Virus record (IMG/VR): IMGVR_UViG_3300015242_000026
Location: 1 to 60,347 of that record
Strand: one strand, 5' to 3'
Length of the DNA stretch: 60,347 nucleotides
DNA from: a virus
Shown here in pieces: positions 8,916 to 37,802 of this stretch; the stretch's first letter is position 1, and each line of letters starts with the position of its first letter. A model generated the notes under the pieces. That model made no database searches, was not told the origin of the DNA, and saw nothing but the letters and a program-made list of their open reading frames with translations. The position numbers were made by a program, and so were the translations under genes.

Positions 8916-8921
8916 CCGGCG

Positions 8922-9770: not shown

Positions 9771-9793
9771 GTGCGTGGGTGGAGAGGACCGCG

Positions 9794-10509: not shown

Positions 10510-10511
10510 CC

Positions 10512-10823: not shown

Positions 10824-10835
10824 GAGGACTTACCG

Positions 10836-11727: not shown

Positions 11728-11768
11728 TGCTGCCCGAACGCCGGGGCGTGACACCCGCAAGAGAGGAC

Positions 11769-13179: not shown

Positions 13180-13183
13180 GGCG

Positions 13184-13354: not shown

Positions 13355-13377
13355 AACCTGATCGTAAGGGGAAACTG

Positions 13378-16610: not shown

Positions 16611-16685
16611 CCCCGCCAGCCCAGCGTGACGGGCGCGTGGGATTACGCGTCCGTCATCACAACGACCAGGGGGCGGTGAGCACTC
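16611..16685 (+). other. Short gap before minor tail gene
   Basis: 75 bases separating the antisense gene from the next tail gene. It would hold the promoter of the antisense gene; no clear -10/-35 pair was found. GGTGAG at 16675-16680 lies 5 bases before the ATC at 16686 discussed in the next entry. Confidence 0.3.
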
Positions 16686-17060: not shown

Positions 17061-17062
17061 CC

Positions 17063-18882: not shown

Positions 18883-18925
18883 TGCTGGCCGGCGGTTCCC
18901 GCACCGAGACCGGGTCATAGCCGTC

Positions 18926-21028: not shown

Positions 21029-21136
21029 CCCGGCCCCCCAAGGCCAGCAACATGGCGCCCGCTGTCGGTAGTGCCCGGCCGCGGGGCGGCGCTCGTCGCC
21101 ACGCTAATCGCGCTCCACAATCAGAGAGGCCCACCA

Positions 21137-21835
21137 ATGCGCCGGCTCCTGTCCGCCACTGTGGTCCTCGCCAGCGTTCTGCTGGCCGCCGCCGTACCGC
21201 AGGCCATCCGGCCGGCGGCTGTACCGAACCCGCTGCGAATCTTGAGCCTCGGGGACAGTCTGACCGCCGGATACGGGAGCACGGACGGGCTCGGCTACCG
21301 CCGCGAGTTGGATCGGCTCCTCACCGCGGCGAGCATCCCGCACGTCATCACCACCACGGCGACGGTGGGCGCGACCACCGCTGATCTGCTGATGCATGTC
21401 GTCGCCGACGTGGCCGCCGCGCAGCCCGACGTGGTGTTGCTGTCGATCGGGACCAACGACGCGGTACAGAGCCCCGCGAGTATCGCGGCGTTCGAGTCAA
21501 ATTATGACCAGATTCTGACGGCGATCCTGGCGGCCCAGCCTGGCGTGGTCGTCGTCGCCAGCTGGGTGATGTATTCGGACGGCCCGGCCTGGTTCGCGGT
21601 CAACGAGAAACTGATCAACGACGCGATCTACCGCCGGGTGTACGGCGGCCACGTCGGCCGGGTCGTGGGGATCGCGGACCTCCAGCTGGTCAACTGCCGC
21701 TATGTCTGTACGGCCGATCACGTCCACCCCGGCAATGTCGGGTATGACGCGTTCGCGTGGGAGTGGTGGCGGGCGCTCGGGTTGTGGCTGGGCCAGCCGT
21801 GGGGCGTGCCGACTGGACCGTGGACCGGGCCGTGA
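21137..21835 (+). CDS. Secreted SGNH-family hydrolase (esterase)
   Basis: 232 aa. ATG 21137 follows AGAGAGG and opens a typical signal peptide (MRRLL, then a hydrophobic run ending near Ala19-Pro21). Catalytic blocks of the SGNH/GDSL family are present: LSLGDSLTAGYG (Ser41), IGTND (Asn107) and ADHVHPGN (Asp194, His197). It would remove acyl or acetyl esters from a lipid or cell-wall polymer, either to clear the envelope at lysis or as a tail-linked enzyme. The muramidase gene starts inside its stop. Confidence 0.88.
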   Translation: MRRLLSATVVLASVLLAAAVPQAIRPAAVPNPLRILSLGDSLTAGYGSTDGLGYRRELDRLLTAASIPHVITTTATVGATTADLLMHVVADVAAAQPDVVLLSIGTNDAVQSPASIAAFESNYDQILTAILAAQPGVVVVASWVMYSDGPAWFAVNEKLINDAIYRRVYGGHVGRVVGIADLQLVNCRYVCTADHVHPGNVGYDAFAWEWWRALGLWLGQPWGVPTGPWTGP

Positions 21836-22809
21836 CCCTGTACGGGTGGGACGCGTCCGACTACGACTGGCCGCGCGGTGCGATGGATCTCGGCGCCGCG
21901 AAACGCGACGGGATCGTCTTCTTTACCCACAAAGCGACCGAGGGCACCACCACCAAGCACAAGCATTTCGGTGAGGCGGTCACCCGGGCGCGGGACGCCG
22001 GGATCGAGTTCATCGGCGCCTACCACGTCGTCCGGTCACCGCGGAATGCCCGCGACGAGTTCAACTACTTCCTGGCCTATGTCGCCAGCCAGGCGGTCTG
22101 GCTGCTCACCTACCCGGGCTTTTTCGTCCAGGTCGACCTGGAGAAATGGCCCTACGATCCGGTCCCGGCCGCCGAAGCCGAAGATTTCGCGGACATCGCC
22201 ACCGCCGAACTCGGCCGCACCGCGATCATCTACGCGTCGCGCGGCCAGTACGGCAACGACCTGGCCGGTACGAGCCATCCGCTGTGGAACGCCGCCTACG
22301 GAACGAACCCGGTCGGGCCGTACCGGTCCACCTATCCGGGGGACCGGGCTACCGGCTGGACCGCCTACTCGGGAGTAGTCCCGGCGATCTGGCAGTACGG
22401 GTCCCGGCTGACCATCGGTACGCAGCCCGGCTGCGACGCGAACGCGTACCGCAGCTCGCTCGAAGACCTGCGCACCCTCATCCAAGGAGACACCGGAATG
22501 GTCGCTGTCGACCCGTTGCACTACGCCGCCCATCCCGCCTTCGCCTCCGTCGTGCGCGCCATTGTGGAGGGCGCCACCGAGGAAGGCTGGATCGACAAGA
22601 CGGGCGTCACCTGGGATGACGACGCCGCGGCAGTGAACCTGACCACGATCCTCACTGGGATCAGGGCGCTCGCCAACCAAGCCGCCGGGCCGGCTGTCCT
22701 GACCGAGGATGATCGGCAGGCCATCATCGCCGGGGTCGTCGCGTCTCTGCCGGCTCCAGCAACCGCAGCCGAGGTGGCCGCCGAAATCATTCGTCAACTG
22801 GCACCGTGA
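21832..22809 (+). CDS. Endolysin, GH25 muramidase
   Basis: 325 aa from GTG 21832. The GH25 barrel covers about residues 1-205: WDASDYDW (Asp7), THKATEG (33-38), AYHVVRSP, and QVDLEKW with the catalytic Asp102/Glu104, then WQYGSRL. It cuts peptidoglycan between MurNAc and GlcNAc. Residues about 220-325 form a separate helical domain (SVVRAIVEGATEEGWID, VAAEIIRQLAP), probably for wall binding or oligomerisation. No signal peptide, so a holin is needed; candidates follow downstream. Confidence 0.93.
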   Translation: MTLYGWDASDYDWPRGAMDLGAAKRDGIVFFTHKATEGTTTKHKHFGEAVTRARDAGIEFIGAYHVVRSPRNARDEFNYFLAYVASQAVWLLTYPGFFVQVDLEKWPYDPVPAAEAEDFADIATAELGRTAIIYASRGQYGNDLAGTSHPLWNAAYGTNPVGPYRSTYPGDRATGWTAYSGVVPAIWQYGSRLTIGTQPGCDANAYRSSLEDLRTLIQGDTGMVAVDPLHYAAHPAFASVVRAIVEGATEEGWIDKTGVTWDDDAAAVNLTTILTGIRALANQAAGPAVLTEDDRQAIIAGVVASLPAPATAAEVAAEIIRQLAP

Positions 22810-22810
22810 G

Positions 22811-22828
22811 GTATCGGCGGGCCGATAC
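22811..22828. promoter_or_regulatory. Inverted repeat after endolysin gene
   Basis: Perfect 8-bp arms GTATCGGC / GCCGATAC with a 2-base centre, starting 2 bases after the endolysin stop. There is no T-run, so it is a weak terminator at best. Alternatives are an mRNA 3'-end stabiliser or a protein-binding palindrome. Confidence 0.55.
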
Positions 22829-22909
22829 AGGAAACGGTACGACTCGCGGTCCAGACCCCCGCCGCGGGCCATACAAACCCCGAGTTGGTGGGGAAGGGCG
22901 GGCTCGTGC

Positions 22910-23179
22910 GTGAAGACGACGGGAATCCTCACGGTAATCAGAGACCTCGGACTAATCGTCGTCGGTCTCGGCGGAATAGTTTTCCAACAGATCAGCGGCC
23001 GAGTGAATATAGAATTGCTGATGGTGTACACCACGATACTCGGGGTGCCCGGGGCGATCGGTCTGCTGCAGCTGTCCCGTGGCAGGTCAGAAACCCCGCA
23101 TACAGCAGGGTCATCGTCGCAGTCTCCGCCGCAGCCCTTGTCTCCGCCGGAATCTTCACCGCCGTCGCCGCCGCGTTGA
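22910..23179 (+). CDS. Holin candidate 1 (two-span membrane protein)
   Basis: 89 aa from GTG 22910. Two hydrophobic segments (LTVIRDLGLIVVGLGGIVF about 8-26; LLMVYTTILGVPGAIGLL about 37-54) are joined by a short polar loop, followed by a Ser/Pro-rich tail. That is the layout of class II holins and of many actinophage lysis-cassette proteins. First membrane gene after the endolysin. Another frame over its 3' end (to 23190) also encodes a hydrophobic stretch but has no good start. Confidence 0.7.
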   Translation: MKTTGILTVIRDLGLIVVGLGGIVFQQISGRVNIELLMVYTTILGVPGAIGLLQLSRGRSETPHTAGSSSQSPPQPLSPPESSPPSPPR

Positions 23180-23191
23180 AGGGCATGTGAA

Positions 23192-23443
23192 ATGTGGCAG
23201 ACAGGCTCACGTCCCACTTGGTATTTCCTGGTAGTCATCTATCTGAGCATGTTCGCGCTCGTTGTCGGCACCATGCTTTACACCAACTATGTGGCCGAAG
23301 AGAACAATCGCAAATGGTGCCACCTACTCGTCACGCTGGATGAGTCATACAGTTCGACGCCGCCAGTCTCCGCGCTCGGCCGGAAAATCGCCGCCGACAT
23401 CCACGGCCTGCGGGCCGACCTGAAATGCGGCTCCAGCCGGTGA
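23192..23443 (+). CDS. Single-span lysis-cassette membrane protein
   Basis: 83 aa from ATG 23192. One span near residues 9-31 (WYFLVVIYLSMFALVVGTML), then an external or cytoplasmic part with two Cys and mixed charge (AEENNRKWCHLLVTLDESY). Proteins of this shape regularly follow actinophage holins and may be a partner or antiholin; that is family knowledge without proof here. The next gene starts before this one ends. Confidence 0.65.
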   Translation: MWQTGSRPTWYFLVVIYLSMFALVVGTMLYTNYVAEENNRKWCHLLVTLDESYSSTPPVSALGRKIAADIHGLRADLKCGSSR

Positions 23444-23907
23444 CCAAACCGGTCAAGGTCTTCTCGATCGTCGGGCTGACCCTCGCGTGGCTGGGTTGGG
23501 AGTTGTGGGCCAACTTCGACACCGACCCGAACACGTGGCCGCTGACCTGGGTGATCGTCCGCTACGTCCCGGCCTGGGTCACCCTGCCGGCCGTGGCGGT
23601 CCTCGCCGCATGGCTGCCGTGGCATTTCTGGTCCAACTATCAGCGCAAGCGCCGCCGGCCGTACCCCTACGGTTCGCGCGCTCTCTCGTCTACCCCGGAG
23701 GTAGCCGTGTTCGCCAAGTACAGAAAGTTCTGGATCGCCGCTGCCGGTGTCGCGGCGGTGGTCGTCAAGGCCCTCGCCGATGGGCAGGTCGATCCGGCTG
23801 AGTGGGGAGAGATCGCAATCGCCGTGGCCACCGCGCTCGGTGTGGTCGCGGTACCGAACCAGCCCGCGGACCCGGCCCCGCCGAAGCTGGCGAGCCGGTA
23901 CCGGTGA
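23425..23907 (+). CDS. Holin candidate 2 (multi-span membrane protein), with internal start
   Basis: 160 aa from ATG 23425 (18-base overlap with the upstream gene). Spans: about 10-27, 45-67 and, in the second half, 97-112 plus a weaker hydrophobic ALG segment. A basic patch (KRRRPYPYGSR) separates the halves. A perfect GGAGG at 23697-23701, 5 bases before GTG 23707, allows the second half to be made alone (see next entry). Two products from one gene would resemble holin/antiholin dual-start systems. Confidence 0.6.
   Translation: MRLQPVTKPVKVFSIVGLTLAWLGWELWANFDTDPNTWPLTWVIVRYVPAWVTLPAVAVLAAWLPWHFWSNYQRKRRRPYPYGSRALSSTPEVAVFAKYRKFWIAAAGVAAVVVKALADGQVDPAEWGEIAIAVATALGVVAVPNQPADPAPPKLASRYR
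23707..23907 (+). CDS. Holin candidate 3, nested 66-aa product
   Basis: Same frame as the preceding entry, started at GTG 23707 behind GGAGG (spacing 5). The product (MFAKYRKFWIAAAGVAAVV, EWGEIAIAVATALGVVAVPNQ) is a complete small membrane protein of a type widespread in actinophages, where it is usually a free-standing gene beside the lysin. The ALGV-x-PN ending is a good marker. This start is at least as likely as 23425 to be the main one. Confidence 0.65.
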   Translation: MFAKYRKFWIAAAGVAAVVVKALADGQVDPAEWGEIAIAVATALGVVAVPNQPADPAPPKLASRYR

Positions 23908-24776
23908 CCCGCACCATCTACCGGGAGAAGATCCCGGCGACCGACCCTCGGTTGAAAAGGCATGTCCTGCACGACTCCGAGTCGCGCCGGTACGCGTTCA
24001 ACACGGCCGGGCTGTCCATCGTCAGCGTGGAGCACCACCGGTGGCTGCCGATCCTCGACCAAGGCGACGTCGGATCATGCACAGCAGACGCCGGGTTCGG
24101 TGTCCTCGGGACCGACCCGTACGCGACCAGCGGCGCAAGCCAACCGATCATGGCCACGTTCGGCGCGTTCACCCAGGCCGGCGCGTACCAGCTGTACAGC
24201 GCGGAGGAACAGTACGACGGGGGCGGCCCGTGGCCGCCCAACGACAATGGCTCTTCGGGGCTGACCCTCGCCAAAGTGCTCCGCGACGTCGGCGCGATCG
24301 CCGGCTGGACTCAGACCTTCACGCTCGATGACGCCCTGAAGGCGCTGGGCCAGTACCCGCTCGCCATCGGTACGGTCTGGTTCAACTCGATGTTCGACCC
24401 GGACCCGCAGGGCATCATCACGGTCTCCCGGTCCAGTGGCCTCGCGGGTGGCCATGAGTACGAAGCGGTCGGCTACGACCAGCCACGAGGGTTGGTGCAC
24501 CTGGCGAACTCGTGGGGCACCAGCTGGGGCGAGAGCGGCTACTTCTGGATGGCCGCTGAAGACCTCGGTCTGCTCCTCGAAGACCAGGGCGACGTCACAG
24601 TCTTCACACCACTGACCAATCCCGCCCCGGTACCCACGCCTGTACTCGTGGACGCCAACGCCGACGATGTGGCCCTGGCCCGGGTGCTCGACCCGTGGGC
24701 CGAGGCCCCGCACGTTGGCCAGAACCACCGGGCAGCGATGGCGTACCTGCAGTGGCGAGCAACCAAGGCCCTGTGA
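23904..24776 (+). CDS. Papain-like cysteine protease (C1 family)
   Basis: 290 aa from GTG 23904. The full papain-type active site is present in order: oxyanion Gln53 and catalytic Cys59 in LDQGDVGSCTADAG, His184 in GGHEYEAVGYD, and Asn202 in LANSWGTSWGESGYFW. There is no prodomain and no signal peptide. The C-terminal 50 residues are a separate acidic/Pro segment. It lies among holin genes, so it may help lysis or take part in head/tail processing; the natural substrate is unknown. Confidence 0.88.
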   Translation: MTRTIYREKIPATDPRLKRHVLHDSESRRYAFNTAGLSIVSVEHHRWLPILDQGDVGSCTADAGFGVLGTDPYATSGASQPIMATFGAFTQAGAYQLYSAEEQYDGGGPWPPNDNGSSGLTLAKVLRDVGAIAGWTQTFTLDDALKALGQYPLAIGTVWFNSMFDPDPQGIITVSRSSGLAGGHEYEAVGYDQPRGLVHLANSWGTSWGESGYFWMAAEDLGLLLEDQGDVTVFTPLTNPAPVPTPVLVDANADDVALARVLDPWAEAPHVGQNHRAAMAYLQWRATKAL

Positions 24777-25255: not shown

Positions 25256-25768
25256 CTACGGGAGCTTCCATTCCTCCCGGTACCCGGGACGGTCGGAGTA
25301 GGGCGAGGCGAGCAGGCGGACGTACCGGCAGGGCCCAACCGGCACCGCGTCCCGCGTCGGGAAGGACGAGTGCTTGGCCACGCAGGCGACACACACCGGC
25401 AACTCCTCGTACGCCTCATCCAGTACGTCGCCGTCGCGCTCAAGCCAGCCGATGCTGCGCCAGATGATCCCGTGAATGTCGAGGATTTGCCGCTTGACCT
25501 CGACGTCTCGGAGTACCCGGGCAGGGTCATGGCGGGCGATGTGCTCGGCGTCTGCCATGCTCTGCCGATCGCCGGTCTCGCCGGTCCCCGCGACGCATGT
25601 AGCAGAGGCGCCAGTCGCCCCGGCGAAGACGGCTTCCTCGAACCATGCCGTGCCCGGCTTCCGCCAATGCTTGTCGGGGCTGTGCCGCCACGGTCCGGCG
25701 GTCGCCGCCCGCGCTACCCGCTCGTCATCGTCCAGTTGCGCTGTCAGCCAGGTCACCAGGTCGTCCAT
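25256..25768 (-). CDS. DUF6221 family protein
   Basis: 170 aa from ATG 25768. It opens MDDLVTWLTAQLDDDERVAR and AATAGPWRHS, the recognisable beginning of DUF6221 proteins, followed by ADAEHIARHDPARVLRDVE near 90-110; two Cys stand in VCVACVAKH. The family is common in Streptomyces genomes and integrative elements and has no known function. Last gene of the long minus-strand operon. Confidence 0.85.
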   Translation of the reverse strand: MDDLVTWLTAQLDDDERVARAATAGPWRHSPDKHWRKPGTAWFEEAVFAGATGASATCVAGTGETGDRQSMADAEHIARHDPARVLRDVEVKRQILDIHGIIWRSIGWLERDGDVLDEAYEELPVCVACVAKHSSFPTRDAVPVGPCRYVRLLASPYSDRPGYREEWKLP

Positions 25769-25782
25769 GACGGGCACCGTAC

Positions 25783-26148
25783 CTACTCCCCGGTGCACGG
25801 GCACAGGTACCCGCCGTCGTTCGTAGGACAGGTCGAGTCCCTGCCGCGGTAGCAGCCGAGCCGCGAGCAGCAGGTGCAGTAGTCGCACGACTCGTAGGAG
25901 TACGCCAGCCGCGGGCCGGGGTCTTGTTGGCGCGGTGCGTCAGTGTCCGGCAGCAGCCGGGCCAGCGCTCGCAGGTACGACCCGGCCGCGAGCGCGCCCA
26001 TCTCCTGATCGTGAGCGCCAAGTTCGGCCCAGGTCGGGTTGTACACGCCTTCGTGGGAGAGCTGCTGGCGAGCTTCGGCCAGTTGCCAGGCCGTCACGTT
26101 CACACCGTTGAGGGTGAGCGCTTCGTCGGGGTTGATGCGTCGGATCAT
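25783..26148 (-). CDS. Cys-rich protein of the transfer operon
   Basis: 121 aa from ATG 26148, which overlaps the stop of the upstream gene (TGATG). The first 85 residues are helical (DEALTLNGVNVTAWQLAEA, GALAAGSYLRALARLLPD); the end is a dense Cys cluster (ESCDYCTCCSRLGCYRG, then CPTNDGGYLCPC), probably a zinc site. Not recognised as a named family. Confidence 0.65.
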   Translation of the reverse strand: MIRRINPDEALTLNGVNVTAWQLAEARQQLSHEGVYNPTWAELGAHDQEMGALAAGSYLRALARLLPDTDAPRQQDPGPRLAYSYESCDYCTCCSRLGCYRGRDSTCPTNDGGYLCPCTGE

Positions 26149-26387
26149 CAGTGGCACTCGCAATCGCAATCTTCATTCGGGCCGGGGTATGCGCCCGGGT
26201 CGTTCTCGTCGTACGGCATCTCCGTTGCGCAGTCGCAGTCGCGGCACTCGTCGTCCCTAACCGCCGAGACCGTCAGCGTGCCGCCGGCCGCCTTGACCGA
26301 CTCGTAGGCGGCGGCCAGCTCCGCGGGTGTCTTGTCCGGCCAGAACCGGGCCATGTCCTCGATCGTTGCCTCGCGCTCGTCGCTCAT
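26148..26387 (-). CDS. 79-aa acidic Cys-rich protein
   Basis: ATG 26387 behind AGGAGTGGAGACCC. The N-terminal half is a helical segment (IEDMARFWPDKTPAELAAA), the C-terminal half is acidic with DDECRDCDCA and EDCDCECH at the very end, probable metal ligands. Translationally coupled to the next gene. Unknown function. Confidence 0.65.
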   Translation of the reverse strand: MSDEREATIEDMARFWPDKTPAELAAAYESVKAAGGTLTVSAVRDDECRDCDCATEMPYDENDPGAYPGPNEDCDCECH

Positions 26388-26423
26388 GGGTCTCCACTCC
26401 TCTGTGTAGTCGTCTCGAAAGGT

Positions 26424-27092
26424 CTACTTACGTGAGGGCATCGGTTCGAGGGTGTCCGGGAGCCATTCCGGCATCTCGAAACCCACGTCCGAAACCTCGA
26501 CGGGAATGGACGACCCAAGGCGGAGTTGCGTATCAGCTTCGGCCTTGAGGTGGCGGTAGAGCGTCGCCGGTGCCACTCCGACCGATGCGGCGGCCTGACG
26601 AACGGTCCGCTTCGTGGCGAGCAGCGCCTTCGCCGCAGCGAGCCGATCCGCAGTCAGCTTCAACGGCCGACCCCCGGTCTCGCCGCGCGCCCTGGCCGCG
26701 GCCCGGCCGGCGGAAGACCGCTCGGCGATCATGCGACGCTCGAACTGCGCCAGCGACGCGAACAGATGGAAGATCAGCTCACCGGTCGCCGTCGTCGTGT
26801 CGATGTGCTCACCGAGCGACCGGAACGCGACCCCGCGATCCTGAATGCCGTTCACCGTCTCAACGAGGTGCAGCAGCGACCGGCCCAGCCGATCCAGCTT
26901 CCAGACGACCAGCACATCGCCCGCCCGGGCGTACTCCAACGCCCTCGCCAACTCCGGCCGCTCGCGCAGCGCCCCGCTGGCCTTCTCCACGAACACCCTG
27001 TCGCAGCCGGCAGCAGCGAGCGCGTCGAGCTGGAGTTGCGGGTTCTGATCCGCAGCAGATACCCGGGCGTACCCGATGGTCTGACCGGTCAC
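26424..27092 (-). CDS. Small serine recombinase (resolvase/invertase type)
   Basis: 222 aa. N-terminal catalytic domain with IGYARVSAADQNPQLQLD (nucleophile Ser12) and WKLDRLGRSLLHLVETV (Arg68, Arg71), then IAERSSAGRAAARARG and a C-terminal HTH about 150-185 (RTVRQAAASVGVAPATLYRHL). A 40-residue acidic tail follows. It is the short resolvase/DNA-invertase type, not a large serine integrase. It could resolve dimers or invert a segment; no matching crossover pair was found. It sits inside the transfer operon and overlaps the neighbouring start. Confidence 0.93.
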   Translation of the reverse strand: MTGQTIGYARVSAADQNPQLQLDALAAAGCDRVFVEKASGALRERPELARALEYARAGDVLVVWKLDRLGRSLLHLVETVNGIQDRGVAFRSLGEHIDTTTATGELIFHLFASLAQFERRMIAERSSAGRAAARARGETGGRPLKLTADRLAAAKALLATKRTVRQAAASVGVAPATLYRHLKAEADTQLRLGSSIPVEVSDVGFEMPEWLPDTLEPMPSRK

Positions 27093-27592
27093 TGCGGCAC
27101 CAATTGGGCGTGCGCGCGCAGCTGGCCCGCCTCGGCGTAACCGAACTGGGCGACCGCCCGAGCGATCGTCTCCGCCTCAACCTGAGTCGGGGTTGCCCAA
27201 TCGCCCTCGACGACGCCGCGGGTCAACACCCGGTTCGTGCCGCCGGTCGGCTCGTAGACGGTGACCCGCCAAGCCCTTGCCGGGGTCGCGGCGACTGCGG
27301 TCGACACGACCGTTCGGCGCCGGCGGGACCAACGCCACAGCATCACCCCGCCCGCACCGACCCACAGGACACGGCGCGCCAGCCAGAGCAGCACCCGCCT
27401 GCCCCGCCTCGTCGCCACTGCCACCGACGCCGGGTACAGCCCGAACAGGAAGAAGTACGGGTTGGTCGCGAAGACCTGGTAGGTCAGGCTCACCGCAGCC
27501 GTCAGGGAGATCGCCACGGCGATGCCCTCCAAGCTCACCCCGCTGCTGCTGCTCTTGGAGCACCCGCAGTCCCCACTGATCACCGTGCACAT
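27089..27592 (-). CDS. Membrane protein of the transfer operon
   Basis: 167 aa from ATG 27592 behind GAGGAGATTTC. It starts with a short Cys/Ser-rich stretch (CTVISGDCGCSKSSSSG), then spans about 22-40 and 45-58, a basic loop (RRGRRVLLWLARR) with a third hydrophobic part, and a soluble C-terminal 80 residues (RAWRVTVYEPTGGTNRV). Not recognised. Its place after the TraB gene suggests a partner in spread or envelope function (inference). Confidence 0.65.
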   Translation of the reverse strand: MCTVISGDCGCSKSSSSGVSLEGIAVAISLTAAVSLTYQVFATNPYFFLFGLYPASVAVATRRGRRVLLWLARRVLWVGAGGVMLWRWSRRRRTVVSTAVAATPARAWRVTVYEPTGGTNRVLTRGVVEGDWATPTQVEAETIARAVAQFGYAEAGQLRAHAQLVPQ

Positions 27593-27601
27593 GAAATCTC
27601 C

Positions 27602-27823
27602 TCACAAATTCCGGAAGTAGTTGTAGATCGCCCGGCCCAACTTCAGGCGCCGGCCGGTCGCCCCGCACGTACCGCAAAGCTGAAACCCGCCGCCCCACAA
27701 CGCCGAACGGCGGGCCGTACCCCGACACCGCCAGCACTTCGCATACGGCCAAAACACGCAGCCGGTCGCGTAGTACAGCGGCAGACCGACGACGATCCCG
27801 ATGACAGCGAGAGTGGTATTCAT
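27602..27823 (-). CDS. 73-aa membrane protein with zinc-ribbon motif
   Basis: One N-terminal span (TTLAVIGIVVGLPLYYATGC), then two CxxC-type pairs (CWRCRGT near 31 and CGTCGATGR near 50) with a basic C-terminus. Small proteins of exactly this make-up sit next to the transfer gene in many Streptomyces integrative elements; function unknown. It begins 20 bases before the repeat cluster that follows traB. Confidence 0.7.
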   Translation of the reverse strand: MNTTLAVIGIVVGLPLYYATGCVFWPYAKCWRCRGTARRSALWGGGFQLCGTCGATGRRLKLGRAIYNYFRNL

Positions 27824-27843
27824 CGATGTCTCCGGGGCTGATC

Positions 27844-27929
27844 GTGTAGCGGCCCGGCCGCTACACGTAGCGGCTGCGCTACACCTGCCGCTACAGGGCT
27901 GACCTGCGGAAACAGGCTTGTAGCGGCAG
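27844..27929. repeat. Cluster of TGTAGCGG inverted repeats beside the translocase gene
   Basis: Three inverted repeats share the half-site TGTAGCGG: 11-bp arms 27844-27854/27856-27866 (1-base centre); GTAGCG/CGCTAC at 27867-27872/27877-27882; 11-bp arms 27885-27895/27919-27929. A further CCGCTACA lies at 27992-27999 inside the 3' end of the translocase gene. It could be the site read by the translocase, like the clt repeats of Streptomyces conjugative plasmids, an operator, or a set of hairpins. IR2 has the same GTAGC-N6-GCTAC form as the lysogeny switch. Confidence 0.85.
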
Positions 27930-27947
27930 ATCGTGGGTAGGCGCTCA

Positions 27948-30089
27948 TCAGGCCGAATCCAGGGTTTTCCGCTTCATGGCCCGCACGATCGCCGCTACAT
28001 GGGCGCCCTTGACGACGCGGTTGTCGTCGGACTTGTCTCGGCCGTTCTTGCTCTCCACCTGCAGGGCGCGTAGCTGCGCGGAGATCGCCTCGCCGGTGAC
28101 GTCGGCATAGTGCTCGGGCAGCTGCTCGGCCAGCCGAGCCGCGATCTGCGTCCAACTCACCCATGCCTCACCGGCGTAGAACACGCCGTGCACGTCGCGC
28201 AGCACGTCGCGGTACTCCCGCGTCACGTCCTCGCCGGCCGCCTGGCCGGTCAACGTCCCGGCCGCCTCACGATGCGCCCGAGCAGCCTTCAAGATGGTCT
28301 GCGCGTCCTCGCCGGTCGCCAGGAACGTCCGGACGATGGGCGTCTCGTCGGACTGGCCGTAGAGGATCCCGACGCCCAGGTACTCCTTACCGAGCGGCAG
28401 CGCCGAGGCGTCGTAGCCCTCGGCGTAGGCGTCGCCGCCGAGGATCGCGTCCGACACGATCCGGTTGCCGCACTTCAGCGCGAACCGGACTGCGAAGTTG
28501 TCCCGGAATCGGTTGAACAGGCGGCCGACATCCCCGGCGCCGACGCCGGAGGGTTTCTGCGATGCGCCGATCAGGACGACACCGGCCGATGGACCAACCG
28601 CCATGATCTTGGAGAGGAGGTCGGCGATTTCCGAGACGGCATCCTTGTCCGCCAGCTCGTAGTACAGCTGGAACTCCTCCATCACCAGCAGCCAAACCCG
28701 CAGGTCCGGGTACTTACGTGCCAGCTCGCGGGTGAGTTTGCCCTCCGGGCACTCCGACAGCGGCAGCCCGGACAGGAAGTCATTGACCCGCTCGATGTGC
28801 CGCATGATCTCGCGCAGCGCCTGGAGGAGATTGTCGACAGGATCGCTGTCCTGGGCGTTCGGGACGATGCCGAAGACCATCCGGTGCGCGACCAGCCGGA
28901 ACGGTTTCCAGTCGGGCGAGTTCTTCCCGTCGGCGATCGTGATCCGCACGTACGGGTCCAGCGCCGCATACAGGGCCAGCAGTCGGGCGGAGAAAGTCTT
29001 GCCCTTGCGGGGCTGTGCTCCGACCAGGATCGACACCCACATCAGGAACACCGAGGTCAGGCGTCCGCGCTCGTCCAGGCCGAACGGTGCCGGCTTCCAA
29101 ATGTCTGTCACCTTGCCCGTGAGCAGCGGGGTCTTACCTGCGGGAACGGACAGCGGGTCGACGTCGGTGACGTACAGCCGGTGCTTGCGTACCGACTTCT
29201 TGTCGCGGGTCAGGTACACCTGCTGCTCCAGGACATCCAGACCAGACGCGATCGCCGCTCTCTCCTTCACCGCGTCCGCGAACGTCGCCCCGAACGGCAG
29301 GATCACCGTTACTTCGGAGCCCTGGTCGAGGGCGTCTCGGGACATCCGTGACCCGAACTCGATCCTCTGGTCTGGTTTGTCCGCACGCCCGAGCCCTGCT
29401 GCGTAGTAGGCGCGTAGCACCACATCGGCGTTGATCACCCGGAATTGCGGGGCGACCACCGCAGACGACACGATCGGCTTTGCCCGCACCGCGACTCGGC
29501 CGTGATGCGCCAGCGGCGGCATCACCACGGCCACGATCAGCAGCTGCAACCACAGCGGCCCGAACGTGTGCAACAGCGCATACCCGATCAGCAGCACGAC
29601 CAGGACACAGGCGAGTACCCAGCCGCGGAACAACCGGCGGGCGTTGCCCTCCCGCCGGTGCTGGCGGAACGCCGCATGATCGGTCTGGTTGACCGCCGCC
29701 TGTTCCATCCGAAACGACGCCGGATCCCACCACCACGAGATCAACAGCCACAACACGCGCAGCAACCCGACCGGCGCGAACAACACACCCAGACCGGCGT
29801 ACAGCGGCGCCCGGACACCGTGCCACGCCGCGTGATGCCCCAGCGCTCCAGCCTTACGGCTGGTGGTCTTCCGAATCCCAGTCCAGGTACGCAGGTTCGC
29901 CGGCACGATCGGCCGGCGTTCATGCTGCTCGACAACCGCATCGACGAACACCGGCTTGTGCTTGTGCTTGGCCGGGTCAGGCCGGTCCTCGTCCGGGTCC
30001 AGCTGGGCCTCGAACGACATGTCGTAGACCTCGCTCGGCCCGATCTCGCCCCGCACCACGACCTGGTCCTCGACGACGTCCTCACTCAC
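27948..30089 (-). CDS. TraB/FtsK-type DNA translocase
   Basis: 713 aa. Polar N-terminus, membrane spans about 95-120 and 154-192, then a RecA-like motor with Walker A GAQPRKGKT (357-365) and Walker B VWLLVMEE (465-472), and IGASQKPSGVGAG in the sensor region. A C-terminal winged-helix-like part (about 640-713, SWTQIAARLAEQLP) corresponds to the DNA-reading gamma domain. In Streptomyces plasmids and AICEs one such protein moves double-stranded DNA between hyphae; host FtsK and SpoIIIE are the relatives. The AQPRKGKTF form is typical of the mobile-element group. Confidence 0.9.
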   Translation of the reverse strand: MSEDVVEDQVVVRGEIGPSEVYDMSFEAQLDPDEDRPDPAKHKHKPVFVDAVVEQHERRPIVPANLRTWTGIRKTTSRKAGALGHHAAWHGVRAPLYAGLGVLFAPVGLLRVLWLLISWWWDPASFRMEQAAVNQTDHAAFRQHRREGNARRLFRGWVLACVLVVLLIGYALLHTFGPLWLQLLIVAVVMPPLAHHGRVAVRAKPIVSSAVVAPQFRVINADVVLRAYYAAGLGRADKPDQRIEFGSRMSRDALDQGSEVTVILPFGATFADAVKERAAIASGLDVLEQQVYLTRDKKSVRKHRLYVTDVDPLSVPAGKTPLLTGKVTDIWKPAPFGLDERGRLTSVFLMWVSILVGAQPRKGKTFSARLLALYAALDPYVRITIADGKNSPDWKPFRLVAHRMVFGIVPNAQDSDPVDNLLQALREIMRHIERVNDFLSGLPLSECPEGKLTRELARKYPDLRVWLLVMEEFQLYYELADKDAVSEIADLLSKIMAVGPSAGVVLIGASQKPSGVGAGDVGRLFNRFRDNFAVRFALKCGNRIVSDAILGGDAYAEGYDASALPLGKEYLGVGILYGQSDETPIVRTFLATGEDAQTILKAARAHREAAGTLTGQAAGEDVTREYRDVLRDVHGVFYAGEAWVSWTQIAARLAEQLPEHYADVTGEAISAQLRALQVESKNGRDKSDDNRVVKGAHVAAIVRAMKRKTLDSA

Positions 30090-30124
30090 TGCTGCTCTAC
30101 CTCTCGGCTCGCTACGAACACTCG

Positions 30125-30151
30125 ACCCCGGCAGGTGGTCCCTACCGGGGT
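30125..30151 (-). promoter_or_regulatory. Hairpin in the translocase gene leader
   Basis: 11-bp stem ACCCCGGTAGG / CCTGCCGGGGT (one G-U) with a 5-base loop, 36 bases before the GTG start at 30089 on the minus-strand transcript. It lies in the only gap of this stretch without a duplicated leader. It could limit translation or readthrough into the translocase gene. Confidence 0.65.
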
Positions 30152-30167
30152 GAGCTGGGAAACGTGG

Positions 30168-30341
30168 TCAGCTACTGCCCGCCTTGCCGCGCTGGGCGTT
30201 CGAGTTCAGCCGCTGCTTCACAGCCTTTTTACTGACCGGGTCAGGCTGCGCCTTCTGCGCACGTCGACTCAGCGAGGCGTGCTGCTTGTCGCTGATCGTG
30301 TTCGGGACGTTTTTACTGCTGCTGCTGTCGAACCAACCCAT
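30168..30341 (-). CDS. 57-aa basic protein, transfer operon
   Basis: ATG 30341 with GAGGAGGAGATCGAG before it. It begins GWFDSSSSKNVPN and ends in a Lys/Arg/Ser-rich stretch (KKAVKQRLNSNAQRGKAG); no membrane span. Start context and upstream leader are shared with the gene at 30423-30563, so the two arose by duplication of the leader or of the gene pair. Unknown role. Confidence 0.65.
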   Translation of the reverse strand: MGWFDSSSSKNVPNTISDKQHASLSRRAQKAQPDPVSKKAVKQRLNSNAQRGKAGSS

Positions 30342-30422
30342 CTCGATCTCCTCCTCGTCATGGCCGGGTGGCCACCGCACCCGGGCCGGCGAGAGTGCCG
30401 GCCCGGAACGGAAACAACCCGG
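30342..30422 (-). repeat. Duplicated leader, copy A (hairpin plus Shine-Dalgarno)
   Basis: 81-base spacer that closely matches 30564-30648. On the minus-strand transcript it carries CCGGGTTGTTTCCG, then a perfect 10-bp stem (arms 30381-30390/30397-30406, 6-base loop), then CGGCCATGAC and a strong GAGGAGGAG. Copy B changes the innermost pair from C-G to T-A, keeping the stem. Probably a structured 5' leader. Confidence 0.75.
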
Positions 30423-30563
30423 TCAGTTCTGGGTGGTATGTCCAAAAACCTTGCCGGGCCGCGCTCCTCCGGCCGGGACCTTCGGGAGCTTGGCGGCCAG
30501 CTTCGCGGCCTGCTCATGCGCGCGAGTCGAAATACCCGGGTCTGGCTTGACGAACTTGCCCAT
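30423..30563 (-). CDS. 46-aa basic protein, transfer operon
   Basis: ATG 30563 behind AGGAGGAGATCGAC. The product (MGKFVKPDPGISTRAHEQAA, later KLPKVPAGGARPGKVFG) is basic, Pro/Ala-rich and without a membrane span. It has the same leader as the 57-aa gene downstream. Very small basic proteins are common beside transfer genes of actinomycete elements; function unknown. Confidence 0.65.
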   Translation of the reverse strand: MGKFVKPDPGISTRAHEQAAKLAAKLPKVPAGGARPGKVFGHTTQN

Positions 30564-30648
30564 GTCGATCTCCTCCTGTCATGGCCGGGTCGGCCACCGC
30601 GCCGAGCCGGTCCGAAAGAACCGGCCCGGACGGAAACAACCCGGATCA
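30564..30648 (-). repeat. Duplicated leader, copy B
   Basis: Second copy of the leader described at 30342-30422. The stem is 30602-30611/30620-30629 with an 8-base loop; one pair is G-U on the transcript and the closing pair is T-A in place of C-G. CGGAAACAACCCGG and GTCATGGCCGGGT flank the stem in both copies. Confidence 0.75.
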
Positions 30649-30793
30649 ATGCAAGTCCCGAGCGCCGCAGCAACGGCACTGATGAGCGCCGCCGCACGTG
30701 CAACCGCAGCTCAAACACCCGCCGCGATGAGCACACCCCACACCGACCGCACTTGCCGCTGTTCTGCTGCCGACAGGAGTCCTTATTGGCCAT
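30646..30793 (-). pseudogene. Cys-rich small protein, probably needing a +1 shift
   Basis: ATG 30793 follows GGGAGAACTGA and 3 bases of spacing after the upstream stop; it reads NKDSCRQQNSGKCGRCGVC and then loses its Cys pattern. The +1 frame, from about 30741 to 30646, continues it (GCLSCGCTCGGAHQCRCC, ends ARDLH). Joined, the two give a compact Cys-rich protein of about 48 aa. Either a real frameshift mutation, a sequencing error, or a 31-aa gene from GTG 30741. Left in the original frame it would overrun the next gene. Confidence 0.4.
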
Positions 30794-30892
30794 TCAGTTC
30801 TCCCATTCCTTGATTCGCAGGTAGACCAGGTACGCCGACAGGACGCCGAGGCCGAGGCCGAGAGCGAGAGCGATGAAGGTGAAGACGGTCAT
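30794..30892 (-). CDS. 32-aa single-span membrane peptide
   Basis: ATG 30892 overlaps the stop of the Spd-like gene (ATGA) with GGAGACC upstream. Nearly the whole peptide is one span (TVFTFIALALGLGLGVLSAY) followed by LRIKEWEN. Tiny membrane peptides next to Spd genes are usual in Streptomyces conjugative elements and affect pock size there; here this is inferred from context. Confidence 0.6.
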   Translation of the reverse strand: MTVFTFIALALGLGLGVLSAYLVYLRIKEWEN

Positions 30893-31623
30893 GACGGGTC
30901 TCCGTTCCTGAGCAGGTGGGCCAGGGCGGCGCCCATGCCCAAGACGCCCACTGGGATACAGGCCACGAAGGTGGTGATCTGCCAGGGGGCGTGATCCATG
31001 TGCGCCGCCGCCATCAGATGGAAGGTGACCTGACCGAGCGCGCCGAGGATCAGCGAACCAACCGCGGACCAGCGGGCGAACCGCCGGGCCCGCGGCGGGA
31101 CACCGATCGCGAGACAGGCCCGCAGCGCGTACGCCGCGTACGCCTCAACCCCGATCGGCAACGTGATCGCCGTGTTGAGCTGGGCGCTGTCCCAAATACC
31201 GGGCAGTGGGTGGACCACCCCGAAACCGGTCAGCCCGCCCAGCCCCACCCAGCCCGACCAGATCGCCACCGAAGCCGGCAGAGCGAGCAGCAGCAGCGGC
31301 CACGCGCTCACCTTCTGGGCCGGCGGCCTATCCGATCCCGCGCCCACTGTGGTCTGCGGAACGGCCGCCACGGCCGGCGCCGGCTCGGCGGGGACATCTA
31401 CCTCATCAGGATTGATCAGGTCGGGGTCGGCCCCTGCGGCCTCGTCGAAACGCCGAGCCTGCTCCTCCAGCCGCGCCTGAATGTCCTTCGCCCGGTCATA
31501 GCCGACCTTCAACTCCCGGCGGATCTCGTTACAGGCCGGTACCCGATCGAGCGTGTTCGCCAGGTCCCGGGCCGCCGGCATCAACTCGTCGACCGTCGCA
31601 CCGTTGATCGTCGGGGTACTCAC
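30889..31623 (-). CDS. Spd-like / DUF2637-type membrane protein
   Basis: 244 aa. Residues 1-60 hold an HTH-like helix set (ACNEIRRELKVGYDRAKDIQ), followed by an acidic Pro linker and four membrane spans (about 106-127, 146-167, 184-205, 215-238). The layout, N-terminal HTH plus DUF2637-like membrane half, is that of the Spd (spread) proteins encoded with traB in actinomycete elements, which form the septal cross-wall channel complex. Embedded in a run of overlapping genes upstream of the translocase. Confidence 0.78.
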   Translation of the reverse strand: MSTPTINGATVDELMPAARDLANTLDRVPACNEIRRELKVGYDRAKDIQARLEEQARRFDEAAGADPDLINPDEVDVPAEPAPAVAAVPQTTVGAGSDRPPAQKVSAWPLLLLALPASVAIWSGWVGLGGLTGFGVVHPLPGIWDSAQLNTAITLPIGVEAYAAYALRACLAIGVPPRARRFARWSAVGSLILGALGQVTFHLMAAAHMDHAPWQITTFVACIPVGVLGMGAALAHLLRNGDPS

Positions 31624-31814
31624 TGAACGCCACCCTTCGCAATGGCCAGCTGTACATGGACCAGCGCGTGGAGGTGTTTCTCCACCCGCTCGTGACTACT
31701 GACCGGCTCTGCCGAGATGGTGGCGGCAAGCTCGACATGCTCGGCCGGGGTCATCGCGACCAGCCGGTCACGATCCGCCGCAATCTCGGCGGCCCTGCGT
31801 TCGGCGTCGCTCAC
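31620..31814 (-). CDS. 64-aa helical protein
   Basis: ATG 31814 overlaps the upstream stop and its own stop overlaps the Spd-like start (both ATGA). All helical (DAERRAAEIAADRDRLVAM, VEKHLHALVHVQLAIAKG). Unknown function; its strict coupling suggests it is made in fixed ratio with the Spd-like protein. Confidence 0.65.
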   Translation of the reverse strand: MSDAERRAAEIAADRDRLVAMTPAEHVELAATISAEPVSSHERVEKHLHALVHVQLAIAKGGVQ

Positions 31815-32563
31815 TGGTCACCACCGGCGATCTCCCGCAGCCGGGCGGTGTAGGTGAGTCCGGCGCGGCGCAACGCATCGGCTGGCGTGCCCTCGGTCCA
31901 ATCGGGGACGCTACCGGTCATCGGCAACGGGGTGTGCTCGCGCGCGTACCCGCGGACCTGCTCCGCCAGCTCGTACCATGCGAGCGAGGGCAGCGCGGCG
32001 GGCCCCGTGACGAGCTCCACGCCGCAGGTGGCGCCGCGCTCGGTCAGGTAGCGCTGCGCCGTGACCCGGTACGCCTCGGTGTACGCGGCCCCGTCCTGGT
32101 CGAACAGCCGCTCGATCGCGGCGGACAGGTCCTCGGCTGCGGCTACCTGCTCGTTGGTGGCGTTCTCGTCGTTCGTGCGCTCAACCGCCTGATCGTTCTC
32201 CTCATCGAACAGGTCGCAGATGCCGAAGTCGAAGAACACATACTCGGCGTCGAAGTGCAGGCGCACCGGTTCGGTCCGCCAGGACAGCAGGTCAGCGGGA
32301 GCGTGGCCGGCGGTGCCGTTCACGAGCTGGCGCACTAGGTCCGCTTCCCACGAGCCGGGCCGGCCGGCCAGCAACGCGTCAACGCCGCCGACATTTGCCG
32401 CCACCGCGGTCAGCACATAGGCGGCAATATCGGCGAAGTCCACCGGCTCGGTCGCGGCGGCCGGAGTGCCCGCGCCACGTACCCGGGTCTGCCGGGCCAC
32501 CGAGGTCAGAACCTCGATCGCCTGCCCGTACAACTCCCGGCGGGAAACCTCAGGGGTACTCAC
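31811..32563 (-). CDS. 250-aa hypothetical protein with duplicated ends
   Basis: Mostly helical, acidic in the centre (FGICDLFDEENDQAVERT), no membrane span, not recognised. Its first residues (STPEVSRRELYGQ) and last residues (LREIAGGDQ) reappear around the next gene upstream (TPEVSRGELYP just before its ATG, LREIAGGDR at its end), and the DNA is nearly identical at both places. The two genes therefore share conserved edges and differ in the middle. Confidence 0.65.
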   Translation of the reverse strand: MSTPEVSRRELYGQAIEVLTSVARQTRVRGAGTPAAATEPVDFADIAAYVLTAVAANVGGVDALLAGRPGSWEADLVRQLVNGTAGHAPADLLSWRTEPVRLHFDAEYVFFDFGICDLFDEENDQAVERTNDENATNEQVAAAEDLSAAIERLFDQDGAAYTEAYRVTAQRYLTERGATCGVELVTGPAALPSLAWYELAEQVRGYAREHTPLPMTGSVPDWTEGTPADALRRAGLTYTARLREIAGGDQ

Positions 32564-32778
32564 CGGTCACCACCGGCGATCTCCCGCAGCAGCTCGGCGA
32601 CCATCTCGGCCGGGATGACTCCGCGTTCGATCGCGGCGAGTTGGGCGAACTTCATCGCGATCTGCTCACGGCCCGGGTTCGCCGACCATGCGGGGCTCGG
32701 GGAGCTGCCGTTTTCCGTTTCATTGTCGGCGGCGGCCCTGCGTAGCAGCGCGGCGGCCTCGGCGAGGTAGTCGGTCAT
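32560..32778 (-). CDS. 72-aa helical protein
   Basis: ATG 32778 follows GGGGAGCTGTACCCG; a longer frame to 32862 is open. It starts TDYLAEAAALLRRAAADN and ends VAELLREIAGGDR. The end and the upstream leader match the neighbouring 250-aa gene at DNA level (see there). Unknown function. Confidence 0.6.
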   Translation of the reverse strand: MTDYLAEAAALLRRAAADNETENGSSPSPAWSANPGREQIAMKFAQLAAIERGVIPAEMVAELLREIAGGDR

Positions 32779-32815
32779 CGGGTACAGCTCCCCGCGGGAA
32801 ACCTCAGGGGTACGC

Positions 32816-32971
32816 TCACCGGTTCCTCGCCTCCTCACGGCGGGCACGTTCACGCGCCTCACGGAGGCGGGTGACCAGCTCGCTGCGCTCGAACCGCTCG
32901 CCGAACTCCAGGTCCAACGCCGTCAATGCTTCGATGCACATCGTCAACTCGGAAATCGTCAGCACGTCCAT
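32816..32971 (-). CDS. 51-aa charged helical protein
   Basis: ATG 32971, stop 32816-32818 overlapping a GTGA. It reads DVLTISELTMCIEALTALD and continues as one strongly charged helix (ELVTRLREARERARREEA). Too short for family assignment; supported by position, length that fills the gap and consistent codon use. Confidence 0.55.
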   Translation of the reverse strand: MDVLTISELTMCIEALTALDLEFGERFERSELVTRLREARERARREEARNR

Positions 32972-33011
32972 GCCACCTATCAAGATCGCAACGAAGAAGG
33001 GGGTTGAGATT

Positions 33012-33143
33012 TCAGGAGCCCTGGCCGAACAGGCGCTTGTCGCGACGACGCATCTTCTTCGCGAACCGACGCGCCTGGCGGGGCGTCAGGCCAGCACGAC
33101 CCGTCTGGTCCGTGTAGACCGCGTAGCGGCAGCCGTCATACAT
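33012..33143 (-). CDS. 43-aa basic protein
   Basis: ATG 33143 behind TTGGAGACCGAG. Product YDGCRYAVYTDQTGRAGLTP then a basic helix (RRFAKKMRRRDKRLFG). The same GGAGACCGAG ribosome site precedes the next gene upstream. The TDQTGRAGLTPRQ core is seen in small proteins near Streptomyces transfer genes; function unknown. Confidence 0.6.
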   Translation of the reverse strand: MYDGCRYAVYTDQTGRAGLTPRQARRFAKKMRRRDKRLFGQGS

Positions 33144-33213
33144 CTCGGTCTCCAATCAAGATCGCGAAGGGGAACAGAGGGAGGGGCGGCTCTACGGCCG
33201 CCCCCGAGATCAA

Positions 33214-33345
33214 CTATTTGCCCTTGCTCTTCCTCTCGCGCTTGTCCCTCTCGACCATCTGCGCGTAACCGGTGGACATCGAACACACGGCACTCCCAGT
33301 GGCGTGACCGCCGCCGCACTTGCTACAGGTCGTCTGCTTCGCCAT
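33214..33345 (-). CDS. 43-aa zinc-knuckle-like protein, first gene of the transfer operon
   Basis: ATG 33345 behind GGGAGACCGAG. It has TTCSKCGGGHATGSAVC (Cys at 7, 10 and 21 plus His14), a likely zinc site, then a charged helix (MVERDKRERKSKGK). It lies directly downstream of the minus-strand promoter at 33384-33413, so it leads the operon. The frame upstream of its ATG is open for a long way but only by chance. Confidence 0.65.
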   Translation of the reverse strand: MAKQTTCSKCGGGHATGSAVCSMSTGYAQMVERDKRERKSKGK

Positions 33346-33470: not shown

Positions 33471-33716
33471 ATGGGAACGGAAAGCCGTTACTCTCAGCGC
33501 GTGTCCAGACTTCCCACCGCGCTGAACGACAGACAGAAGCGGCTGCTGGCCGCTCTGGCGGGCGTCGTGGAGAAGCGCCGCCGCAACGACGCGGAGTACG
33601 AGGACCTGCTCGTCCAGTGCAAGGCAGCGGACATCCCGATCGCACACATCGCGGACACCGCAGGGGTGCAGCGGAAGACGATCTACAGCCAGCTCGGGCG
33701 TGCCGGTGGGGGCTGA
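33471..33716 (+). CDS. HTH regulator, divergent from transfer operon
   Basis: 81 aa from ATG 33471 (GGAGGG 9 bases upstream; GTG 33462 is possible). A helical first half (LNDRQKRLLAALAGVVEKR, coiled) leads to an HTH near residues 45-75 (IPIAHIADTAGVQRKTIYSQ), like those of small phage and plasmid regulators. It is the first gene right of the symmetric operator and the best candidate to bind it. Confidence 0.7.
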   Translation: MGTESRYSQRVSRLPTALNDRQKRLLAALAGVVEKRRRNDAEYEDLLVQCKAADIPIAHIADTAGVQRKTIYSQLGRAGGG

Positions 33717-33720
33717 ACCC

Positions 33721-34227
33721 GTGGGCCGGACCGCCCTGTATGAGCTGCACGACGACGCGGGCGTGCTGCTCTACGTCGGCATCTCCAATCGGCCTCGGGT
33801 CCGATTCGCCAAGCACGCCCACGACAAGGTCTGGTGGCCAGAGGTAGCGACATGGACAGTCACCTGGCACGAAACCCGCGACGGCGCCGCACTCGCAGAG
33901 GTGACTGCGATTCGTACCAAACGTCCCCGACACAACAAGGCCCTGCCAGACGAGTACGGCGTCTACCGAGTCGCTGGGCGTCGCCCGCCGTTGAGCCCGG
34001 ACCACGTCGCAGTTCTTGAGCGCCTGGCTTCGATCGTGGACCCGGCCGCGCGCGCCATAGAGATCGGCCGGCAACTCCAGGCGATCCCAAAGACTCAGCA
34101 GCGCTTGGCGGGCATGCGGCAGGCCGCCGTTCTTGAAATGCGCGCCAACGGCACGACCTTGGCCAAGATCGGCGCGGAGTTGGGCGTGAGCAGCGGGCGC
34201 GCCCAACAGATCAGTATCGGCGAATGA
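33721..34227 (+). CDS. GIY-YIG nuclease-like protein with C-terminal HTH
   Basis: 168 aa from GTG 33721 (GGGGG 9 bases upstream; GTG 33700 also open). The N-terminus has the GIY-YIG frame: ALYELHDDAGVLLYVGISNR (the two motifs read ALY and YVG) with Arg and His following (RVRFAKHA), then TKRPRHNKALPDEY. Residues about 140-168 are an HTH (GTTLAKIGAELGVSSGRAQQ). Proteins of this kind may cut DNA or act as site-specific regulators. Second gene of the divergent operon, closed by a terminator. Confidence 0.82.
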   Translation: MGRTALYELHDDAGVLLYVGISNRPRVRFAKHAHDKVWWPEVATWTVTWHETRDGAALAEVTAIRTKRPRHNKALPDEYGVYRVAGRRPPLSPDHVAVLERLASIVDPAARAIEIGRQLQAIPKTQQRLAGMRQAAVLEMRANGTTLAKIGAELGVSSGRAQQISIGE

Positions 34228-36899: not shown

Positions 36900-37802
36900 T
36901 CAGCAGGGGGCAGGAGCGGGCAGCGCATTGACGGCGAGTCGGCGCTGCTCGCTCGTAACGAGCGCATAGATCTTGGTGGTATTCGGGTTGGCGTGACCCA
37001 TCAATATCGACACCGTGAGTAGATCCGCGCCCGCGCCGCCCAGTTCCTTCGGCCGTAATAGCATCGTCGCGAATCGGCTACGGAATCGATGCATGGTGAT
37101 GTCAGGCATTCCGATCTTGTCGAAGCGGTACGCCATACGACTCGACATCTGATAGGCCGTCATCACCCGCCCCGACCCGAGCAGCGCGATCGGGCCGGGT
37201 GGTATGGCCCGCATTCGACGCCACAGGTCCGGATGCGTCTCGACGATCCGGGACTTGCCGCCTTTGCCCTGGTGGACCGCCAACTCGTCGGCGTTGACGT
37301 GACGGCGGTCGAGTGCCGCCACCTCGCAGGATCTCAGCCCGGCATAGGCGGCGAGCATCACGTACAGGTCCCATGGCGGCGCGAGCAGCGTCAATGCTTG
37401 CTGTAGCTCGTCCTCGGTGGCCGGACGGGGCAGACCGGCCTCGACCTTGGGGCGCATGAGGCCTGCCGAGGGGTCATGACCGATGCGCCCGGCCATGTCG
37501 CGGAAGAAACCCACGATGTGCGTGTAGTAGGTGCCGCGGGTCTGGGCAGACCAGGGGCATCGGCCGCGGGTACCGACCGGGCCGGCCTGGGCCAGCCAGT
37601 CCTCGAGGTCCTCGGTGGTGGCGTCGACCAGGCCGAGGGGTAGGTCCCGGTCGAGCCGCTCGAGCAGCTCACCGCGATCGGTGATGGTCCTCTCGGAGAG
37701 GTTGGCTCCCCGGCAGCGTCTCAGATGCGCTGTGATCATGTCATTCATGTTCGGTGACATTGCCGTCACTGACATTGCGGCGGTATCCGGGAGATTGGCC
37801 AT
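36900..37802 (-). CDS. int: Tyrosine integrase
   Basis: 300 aa. The catalytic residues of tyrosine recombinases are all visible: Arg157 (AYAGLRSCEV), Lys183 (GKGGKSRIV), His238/Arg241 (TMHRFRSRFAT), His270 (MGHANPNTT) and the nucleophile Tyr279 (KIYALV). An N-terminal SAM-like core-binding domain covers about 20-110. Start near 37802; several Met codons follow within 22 residues. It lies 1 base after the repressor gene on the same strand, so the two may be co-transcribed. Confidence 0.95.
   Translation of the reverse strand: MANLPDTAAMSVTAMSPNMNDMITAHLRRCRGANLSERTITDRGELLERLDRDLPLGLVDATTEDLEDWLAQAGPVGTRGRCPWSAQTRGTYYTHIVGFFRDMAGRIGHDPSAGLMRPKVEAGLPRPATEDELQQALTLLAPPWDLYVMLAAYAGLRSCEVAALDRRHVNADELAVHQGKGGKSRIVETHPDLWRRMRAIPPGPIALLGSGRVMTAYQMSSRMAYRFDKIGMPDITMHRFRSRFATMLLRPKELGGAGADLLTVSILMGHANPNTTKIYALVTSEQRRLAVNALPAPAPC

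Follow-up and report, generated by a model that had tools for sequence, protein, structure and literature searches.

Predicted TraB-type DNA transfer cassette with a clt-like site in a temperate siphophage

The IMG/VR virus record IMGVR_UViG_3300015242_000026, analyzed here over its whole length of 60,347 bases (the window), contains a phage genome with genes for the large terminase (TerL), portal, head protease, capsid, tape measure and endolysin, together with an XRE regulator, a tyrosine integrase and an O-like replication initiator. A block of 17 minus-strand genes (25256-33345), placed between the lysis genes and the integrase, includes g41, which codes for a TraB-type translocase of double-stranded DNA (dsDNA), and g45 and g40, which code for membrane proteins (Table 1). 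An earlier inspection of the letters and their open reading frames (the sequence-only reading) had described this block as a conjugation-type operon embedded in a siphophage. We recovered the siphophage genes and the compact layout that it had reported (many of the genes overlap by 1-4 bases or leave gaps of less than 80), with one correction, as the gene caller gave 17 genes and not eighteen. The operon has the orientation of the integrase and the repressor and not that of the virion operon.

The sequence-only reading had listed g41 as a TraB/FtsK-type translocase with Walker motifs, and these held: the Walker A sequence GAQPRKGKT (residues 357-365) and the acidic pair of Walker B (E471/E472) are conserved throughout the family. 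The AlphaFold2 model (mean predicted local distance difference test score, pLDDT, of 81) has long N-terminal membrane helices, a motor and a C-terminal winged helix, modelled at residues 629-697 as helix-strand-helix-helix-wing. The hydrophobic spans of the N-terminal membrane domain (99-117 and 158-176) fall inside modelled helices (69-121 and 138-176). Among PDB structures the dsDNA-bound FtsK motor matched best (E 6e-13), followed by the conjugation protein TcpA. Pfam gave no match for g41, and NCBIfam none for g41, g45 or g40; PHROG 1358 classes such translocases as FtsK/SpoIIIE-like. By tblastn, g41 matched 44 actinomycete plasmid records and, among phage records, only two of Gilgamesh (27% over 43%). 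A pattern scan gave 7 and then 18 viral contigs (partly overlapping sets) and 25 chromosomal loci, with identities to g41 of 45-62%, or 34% in two of the contigs. With its homologues in AICEs (actinomycete integrative and conjugative elements) and phages, g41 shares 50-62% identity. The sequence-only reading had proposed a comparison with host and phage FtsK proteins. The g41-family profile recovered TraB of pSVH1 (E 1.7e-39) as well as the TraBs of two other Streptomyces plasmids, and detected neither three host FtsK/SpoIIIE-type proteins (L060-L062) nor gp10 of the Streptomyces phage Gilgamesh. By this measure plasmid TraB, and not host FtsK, is the nearer relative of g41. The profile, together with partners of the type found in AICEs (see below), ruled out a host FtsK or phage-packaging origin of g41.

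Directly 3' of traB we found a feature that the sequence-only reading had not mentioned, a predicted clt-type transfer site with repeated octamers. Five exact copies of GTAGCGGC span 82 bp (27846-27927); the octamer occurs 11 times in the whole phage against 2.7 expected. The array has a score of 10 (shuffle maximum 5), and of 1721 windows along the phage it holds the octamers that cluster most densely. Nearly all the relatives have a non-coding gap at the same place, mostly of 110-370 bases, with an octamer repeated on both strands. When the gaps are aligned their geometry recurs, and the middle bases of all the copies, direct and inverted, change in concert locus by locus. A second element, TGACCTGC, often followed by NNAAAC, is nearly invariant in these gaps in phages, in AICEs and in plasmids (pSVH1, pSG5, pFP11). 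In the phage gap it lies at 27900-27907, the place of GCAGGTCA, and in many loci GCAGGTCA is kept without its complement. As a positive control, a blind scan of the gap after pSVH1 traB yielded GACCCGGA, which we take to be the published pSVH1 TraB octamer. A pIJ101 stretch that differs from the published clt, tried as a clt control, gave no array. In TraB of pSVH1 the winged helix recognizes 8-bp repeats with its helix alpha-3 (PMC3583192). In the phage as a whole TGACCTGC is over-represented (8 copies, 2.3 expected), with intergenic copies at 48053, 60274 and 23082 besides the one in the gap and four more within genes; some relatives also have it away from traB.

The site and the protein appear to be coupled. 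Across 31 loci, repeat similarity tracks the similarity of the TraB C-terminal domain when the motor and the N terminus are controlled for (partial Mantel r 0.18, p 0.022), and is not significantly related to motor similarity (partial Mantel p 0.17). Loci L006, L007 and L047 have CGGAAC repeats and the wing sequence SLWGVPR in common, and a single clade of their motors was rejected (approximately unbiased test, AU, p 8e-5). This case was spotted before being tested and is therefore supporting and not independent proof. From locus to locus the wing varies along with the repeats, and from these comparisons the repeat sequence seems to follow the C-terminal DNA-binding domain of TraB rather than the motor. 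As this domain and the site adjoin on the DNA, they could be swapped as one piece.

The proteins around traB were also examined. For g45 the sequence-only reading had given a helix-turn-helix (HTH) segment and four membrane spans of the Spd/DUF2637 kind. The HTH-like segment and the hydrophobic core stand; the hydropathy scan places two spans above threshold, and the count of four comes from inspection. The DUF2637 label was dropped for g45, which has no such match in Pfam and is treated as a position equivalent only, whereas its position equivalents in L006, L023 and L036 do match this family. The membrane peptide g44, the zinc-ribbon membrane protein g40 and the small basic proteins g42, g43, g50 and g51 are present as had been reported. 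The g40 family (cluster C1) is found downstream of traB in 26 loci, and membrane peptides of 29-51 amino acids, comparable to g44, lie upstream of traB in some phage relatives. Plasmids of Nocardia and Cellulosimicrobium (L034, L035, L037) also code for g45-like proteins (57-65% over the matched part), and no traB annotation is close to these genes; two of the genes adjoin ParA, and one of the plasmids has a MobF relaxase. A 56-base repeat (71%; 30326-30381 and 30548-30603) spans the starts of g42 and g43, which suggests a duplication.

A similar cassette recurs in 16 elements besides the phage studied, each a phage, a prophage or a phage-plasmid. A terminase is on the traB contig in L002, L003, L004, L007, L038, L045, L046, L047 and L048, a portal in L005, and tail or lysis genes are beside the cassette in L006, L008, L015 and L016. 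In two circular Pseudonocardia phage-plasmids, pPaSha2 (CP052773) and P. broussonetiae unnamed3 (NZ_CP053567), genes for DUF2637 and TraB are combined with those for terminase, capsid and protease. L003 and L004 come from isolate strains, L015 and L016 from Phytohabitans maris, and pPaSha2 from Pseudonocardia alni. In phage-like elements the cassette is often located in the lysogeny region, adjoining lysis genes. On the motor tree five changes of phage label are needed, and well-supported branches make four of these unavoidable; a single origin of the phage TraBs in one phage-only clade was rejected (AU p 3e-5). As phage and AICE TraBs are interleaved, the cassette has been exchanged repeatedly. 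The phage traB is under purifying selection, with dN/dS values of 0.08 and 0.20 in the two closest phage pairs.

AICEs are defined by Int, Tra and Rep functions, the last being RepSA, RepAM (DUF3631) or Prim-Pol (Ghinet et al., 2011, PMC3218068). Most of the chromosomal relatives are AICE-like, with a regulator, a WhiB-like gene, a membrane protein, traB, a small zinc-ribbon protein, Prim-Pol, a DUF3631 protein, an excisionase (xis) and an integrase (int); in L010 Prim-Pol, DUF3631 and HTH_17 were confirmed. The order g45-g41-g40 recurs in AICEs carrying Prim-Pol, DUF3631, xis and int, so the cassette does occur in conjugative elements, a point that the sequence-only reading had left to be checked. 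TraB is 50-61% identical between phage and AICEs, and g45 shares 51-68% of its residues with the protein that AICEs have in this place upstream of traB; the g40-type zinc ribbon, a clt-type array and a GntR or XRE regulator are likewise common to both. The phage differs in having virion genes and an O-like initiator, and our search for Prim-Pol in the window found none, as had been stated before. DUF3631 gave no match in the window, and the control genomes were equally without match. The phage has Int and Tra and, as far as the Prim-Pol and DUF3631 searches go, no Rep of AICE type; replication would be left to the phage module, as first read, with g79 as the O-like initiator. As a side observation, the C terminus of the pPaSha2 TraB (L036:19902-21950, residues 575-671) matches DUF3631, the RepAM family, weakly (E 4e-4), hinting at a DNA-binding domain common to AICE replication and transfer proteins.

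Similar comparisons can be made with plasmids. In pSVH1, and also in pSG5 and pFP11, small genes, a membrane Spd protein, a small gene, traB, the gap and more small genes follow in this order, an octamer array and TGACCTGC lie directly 3' of traB, and an FtsK-like motor has a C-terminal DNA-binding domain. However, pSVH1 is a small plasmid, identity of its TraB in the motor is only about 31%, and its octamer is GACCCGGA instead of GTAGCGGC. The plasmid-phage pZL12 (Zhong et al., 2010) is described as combining a lytic cycle with conjugal transfer (via PMC3583192, PMC4487206), so that a conjugating phage would already be a known kind. By these descriptions, to which our comparison is confined, pZL12 is a theta-type plasmid, whereas the present phage may integrate by means of its tyrosine integrase. 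The circular pPaSha2 and P. broussonetiae unnamed3 share with the present phage terminase, capsid, protease and integrase genes and neighbouring DUF2637 and FtsK/TraB genes; the pPaSha2 TraB is only 32% identical, and unnamed3 differs in also having Prim-Pol. We found no description of either plasmid as a conjugative phage.

Table 1. Features of the operon and of the phage genome around it (positions in the window).
Feature	Coordinates	Strand	Basis
Virion and lysis region (TerL, portal, protease, capsid, tape measure, endolysin)	404..24776	+	
g35-g37 at the operon distal end, one DUF6221 protein and two small acidic proteins with cysteines	25256..26387	-	
g38, serine recombinase (resolvase/invertase), overlapping g39	26424..27092	-	
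g39, 167-aa basic membrane protein	27089..27592	-	
g40, 73-aa basic membrane protein, zinc ribbon	27602..27823	-	
clt-like transfer site (predicted), between traB and g40	27824..27947	-	five exact GTAGCGGC octamers, both strands, and GCAGGTCA
g41, TraB-type dsDNA translocase, 713 aa	27948..30089	-	motifs, model, profile
g42, 57-aa basic protein	30168..30341	-	
g43, 46-aa basic protein	30423..30563	-	
g44, 32-aa single-span membrane peptide	30794..30892	-	
g45, 244-aa SpdB-like protein, HTH-like N terminus and membrane core	30889..31623	-	
g46-g51, promoter-proximal small proteins without known family	31620..33345	-	
g52-g53, small HTH-like proteins, divergent, adjoining operon start	33471..34227	+	
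g55, XRE-type phage regulator	35565..36812	-	
g56, phage tyrosine integrase	36900..37802	-	
g79, phage O-like replication initiator, in place of AICE replication module	49570..50487	+	

Among the other genes of the operon, the serine recombinase g38, also absent from the sequence-only reading, possibly acts in multimer resolution; a recombinase is found downstream of traB in the S. decoyicus plasmid NZ_CP107886 as well. Relatives of g53 are present in L005 and L007. A 32-base element with GTAC at both ends, possibly an operator or translational element, has 94% identical copies upstream of g47 (32528-32559) and g48 (32782-32813). A promoter scan gave no result above chance. No extra integrase or xis was found near the operon and, as the block comes without Prim-Pol, xis or a second tyrosine integrase, we ruled out a whole AICE inserted in the phage. 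TerL, portal, HK97 capsid, tape measure, lysis genes, integrase and repressor place the phage among the temperate siphophages (Caudoviricetes), with a search for a contractile sheath that was not exhaustive, and prophage integration is likely because of the integrase. Elsewhere in the window there are, in the early region, a gene resembling phosphoadenosine phosphosulfate reductase (39595-40419) and, near the right end, an array of about 60-base repeats (58432-59503) within and upstream of g92, a 389-residue protein of 20-residue repeats with no family.

Our reading is that the phage probably carries a complete TraB/Spd/clt cassette of AICE type as a second, particle-free route beside its virions. 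A selected dsDNA-transfer machine in the phage is well supported by the sequence comparisons, and from it we infer particle-free transfer between hyphae. Since the phage and at least 16 other phages or phage-plasmids carry the cassette, they may spread as naked DNA through the mycelium. The integrase would excise the prophage and phage replication would supply circular dsDNA, TraB hexamers would load on the octamer array via the winged helix, and the unprocessed circle would be pumped by TraB through a membrane pore, with g45, g44, g40 and g39 as possible spreading or pore partners, to enter a touching hypha or cross septa. Several points weigh against this. DNA binding by TraB, the pore and DNA transfer are predictions, and the host is only presumed, probably a mycelial soil actinomycete. 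The cassette is in none of 50,697 records of isolated phages, where the sole match was the distant Gilgamesh gp10. In 247 sampled actinomycete genomes none of 46 traB places, many with Prim-Pol within a few kb, had a terminase of phrog_9, a family that covers only part of terminases, within 45 kb on the contig; phages therefore seem minority carriers and phage carriage rare in chromosomes. Besides, the partial Mantel effect of the C-terminal domain on the repeats is small, and the array gap folds stably as RNA (z -4.0) and precedes the start of an open reading frame.

The fold would fit a different role of the repeats, as a regulatory operator or a structured RNA leader for g40 and downstream genes, with TraB a less specific translocase; tra operons are often self-regulated. 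Yet direct and inverted copies change in concert with each other and with the TraB wing, the loci that keep GCAGGTCA alone do not suit it, and the gap at the same place in pSVH1 holds GACCCGGA, taken here as the octamer that its TraB binds, so we regard this role as improbable. The main competitor, which we consider unlikely although less so than any other, is that the cassette acts only inside the lysogen's own mycelium, with TraB and the Spd-like proteins spreading or partitioning circles across septa. Spd proteins of Streptomyces plasmids do serve intramycelial spreading (PMC4170104), and the block is oriented like the lysogeny genes; however, phages and AICEs have interchangeable cassettes, and in AICEs TraB carries the element between hyphae.

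A recently captured AICE remnant, functionless for the phage, would account for AICE-type genes without AICE replication genes. It is very improbable given that 17 phage-like elements have the block, often in the lysogeny region beside lysis genes, that reading frames and arrays are intact with the low dN/dS values above, and that no additional integrase or xis lies nearby. We give still less credit to a translocase serving the lytic cycle (packaging, DNA ejection) or host chromosome segregation, for which the PHROG 1358 label and the FtsK-like gene of Gilgamesh could be cited, as the phage has its own TerL and portal set, neither host FtsK nor Gilgamesh gp10 is picked up by the family profile, and the partners and the site are of AICE type.

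Extending the transfer reading beyond this phage, we see about an even chance that recurring temperate actinophages and phage-plasmids spread both by virions and by TraB/clt-mediated dsDNA transfer between hyphae, trade the cassette with AICEs and swap the C-terminal TraB reading head and its site as a unit. What is new within the known kind is the form of a siphophage with an integrase, along with the clt-like site and the repeated exchange with AICEs. The approximately 30 natural pairs of TraB and site with concerted changes offer a test system for how a winged helix reads its octamer. If the machine works, the virus would move through mycelium without particles and could bypass receptor loss, host DNA might be carried along as by TraB elements, and there would be reason to re-examine the boundary between phages and conjugative elements in actinomycetes.

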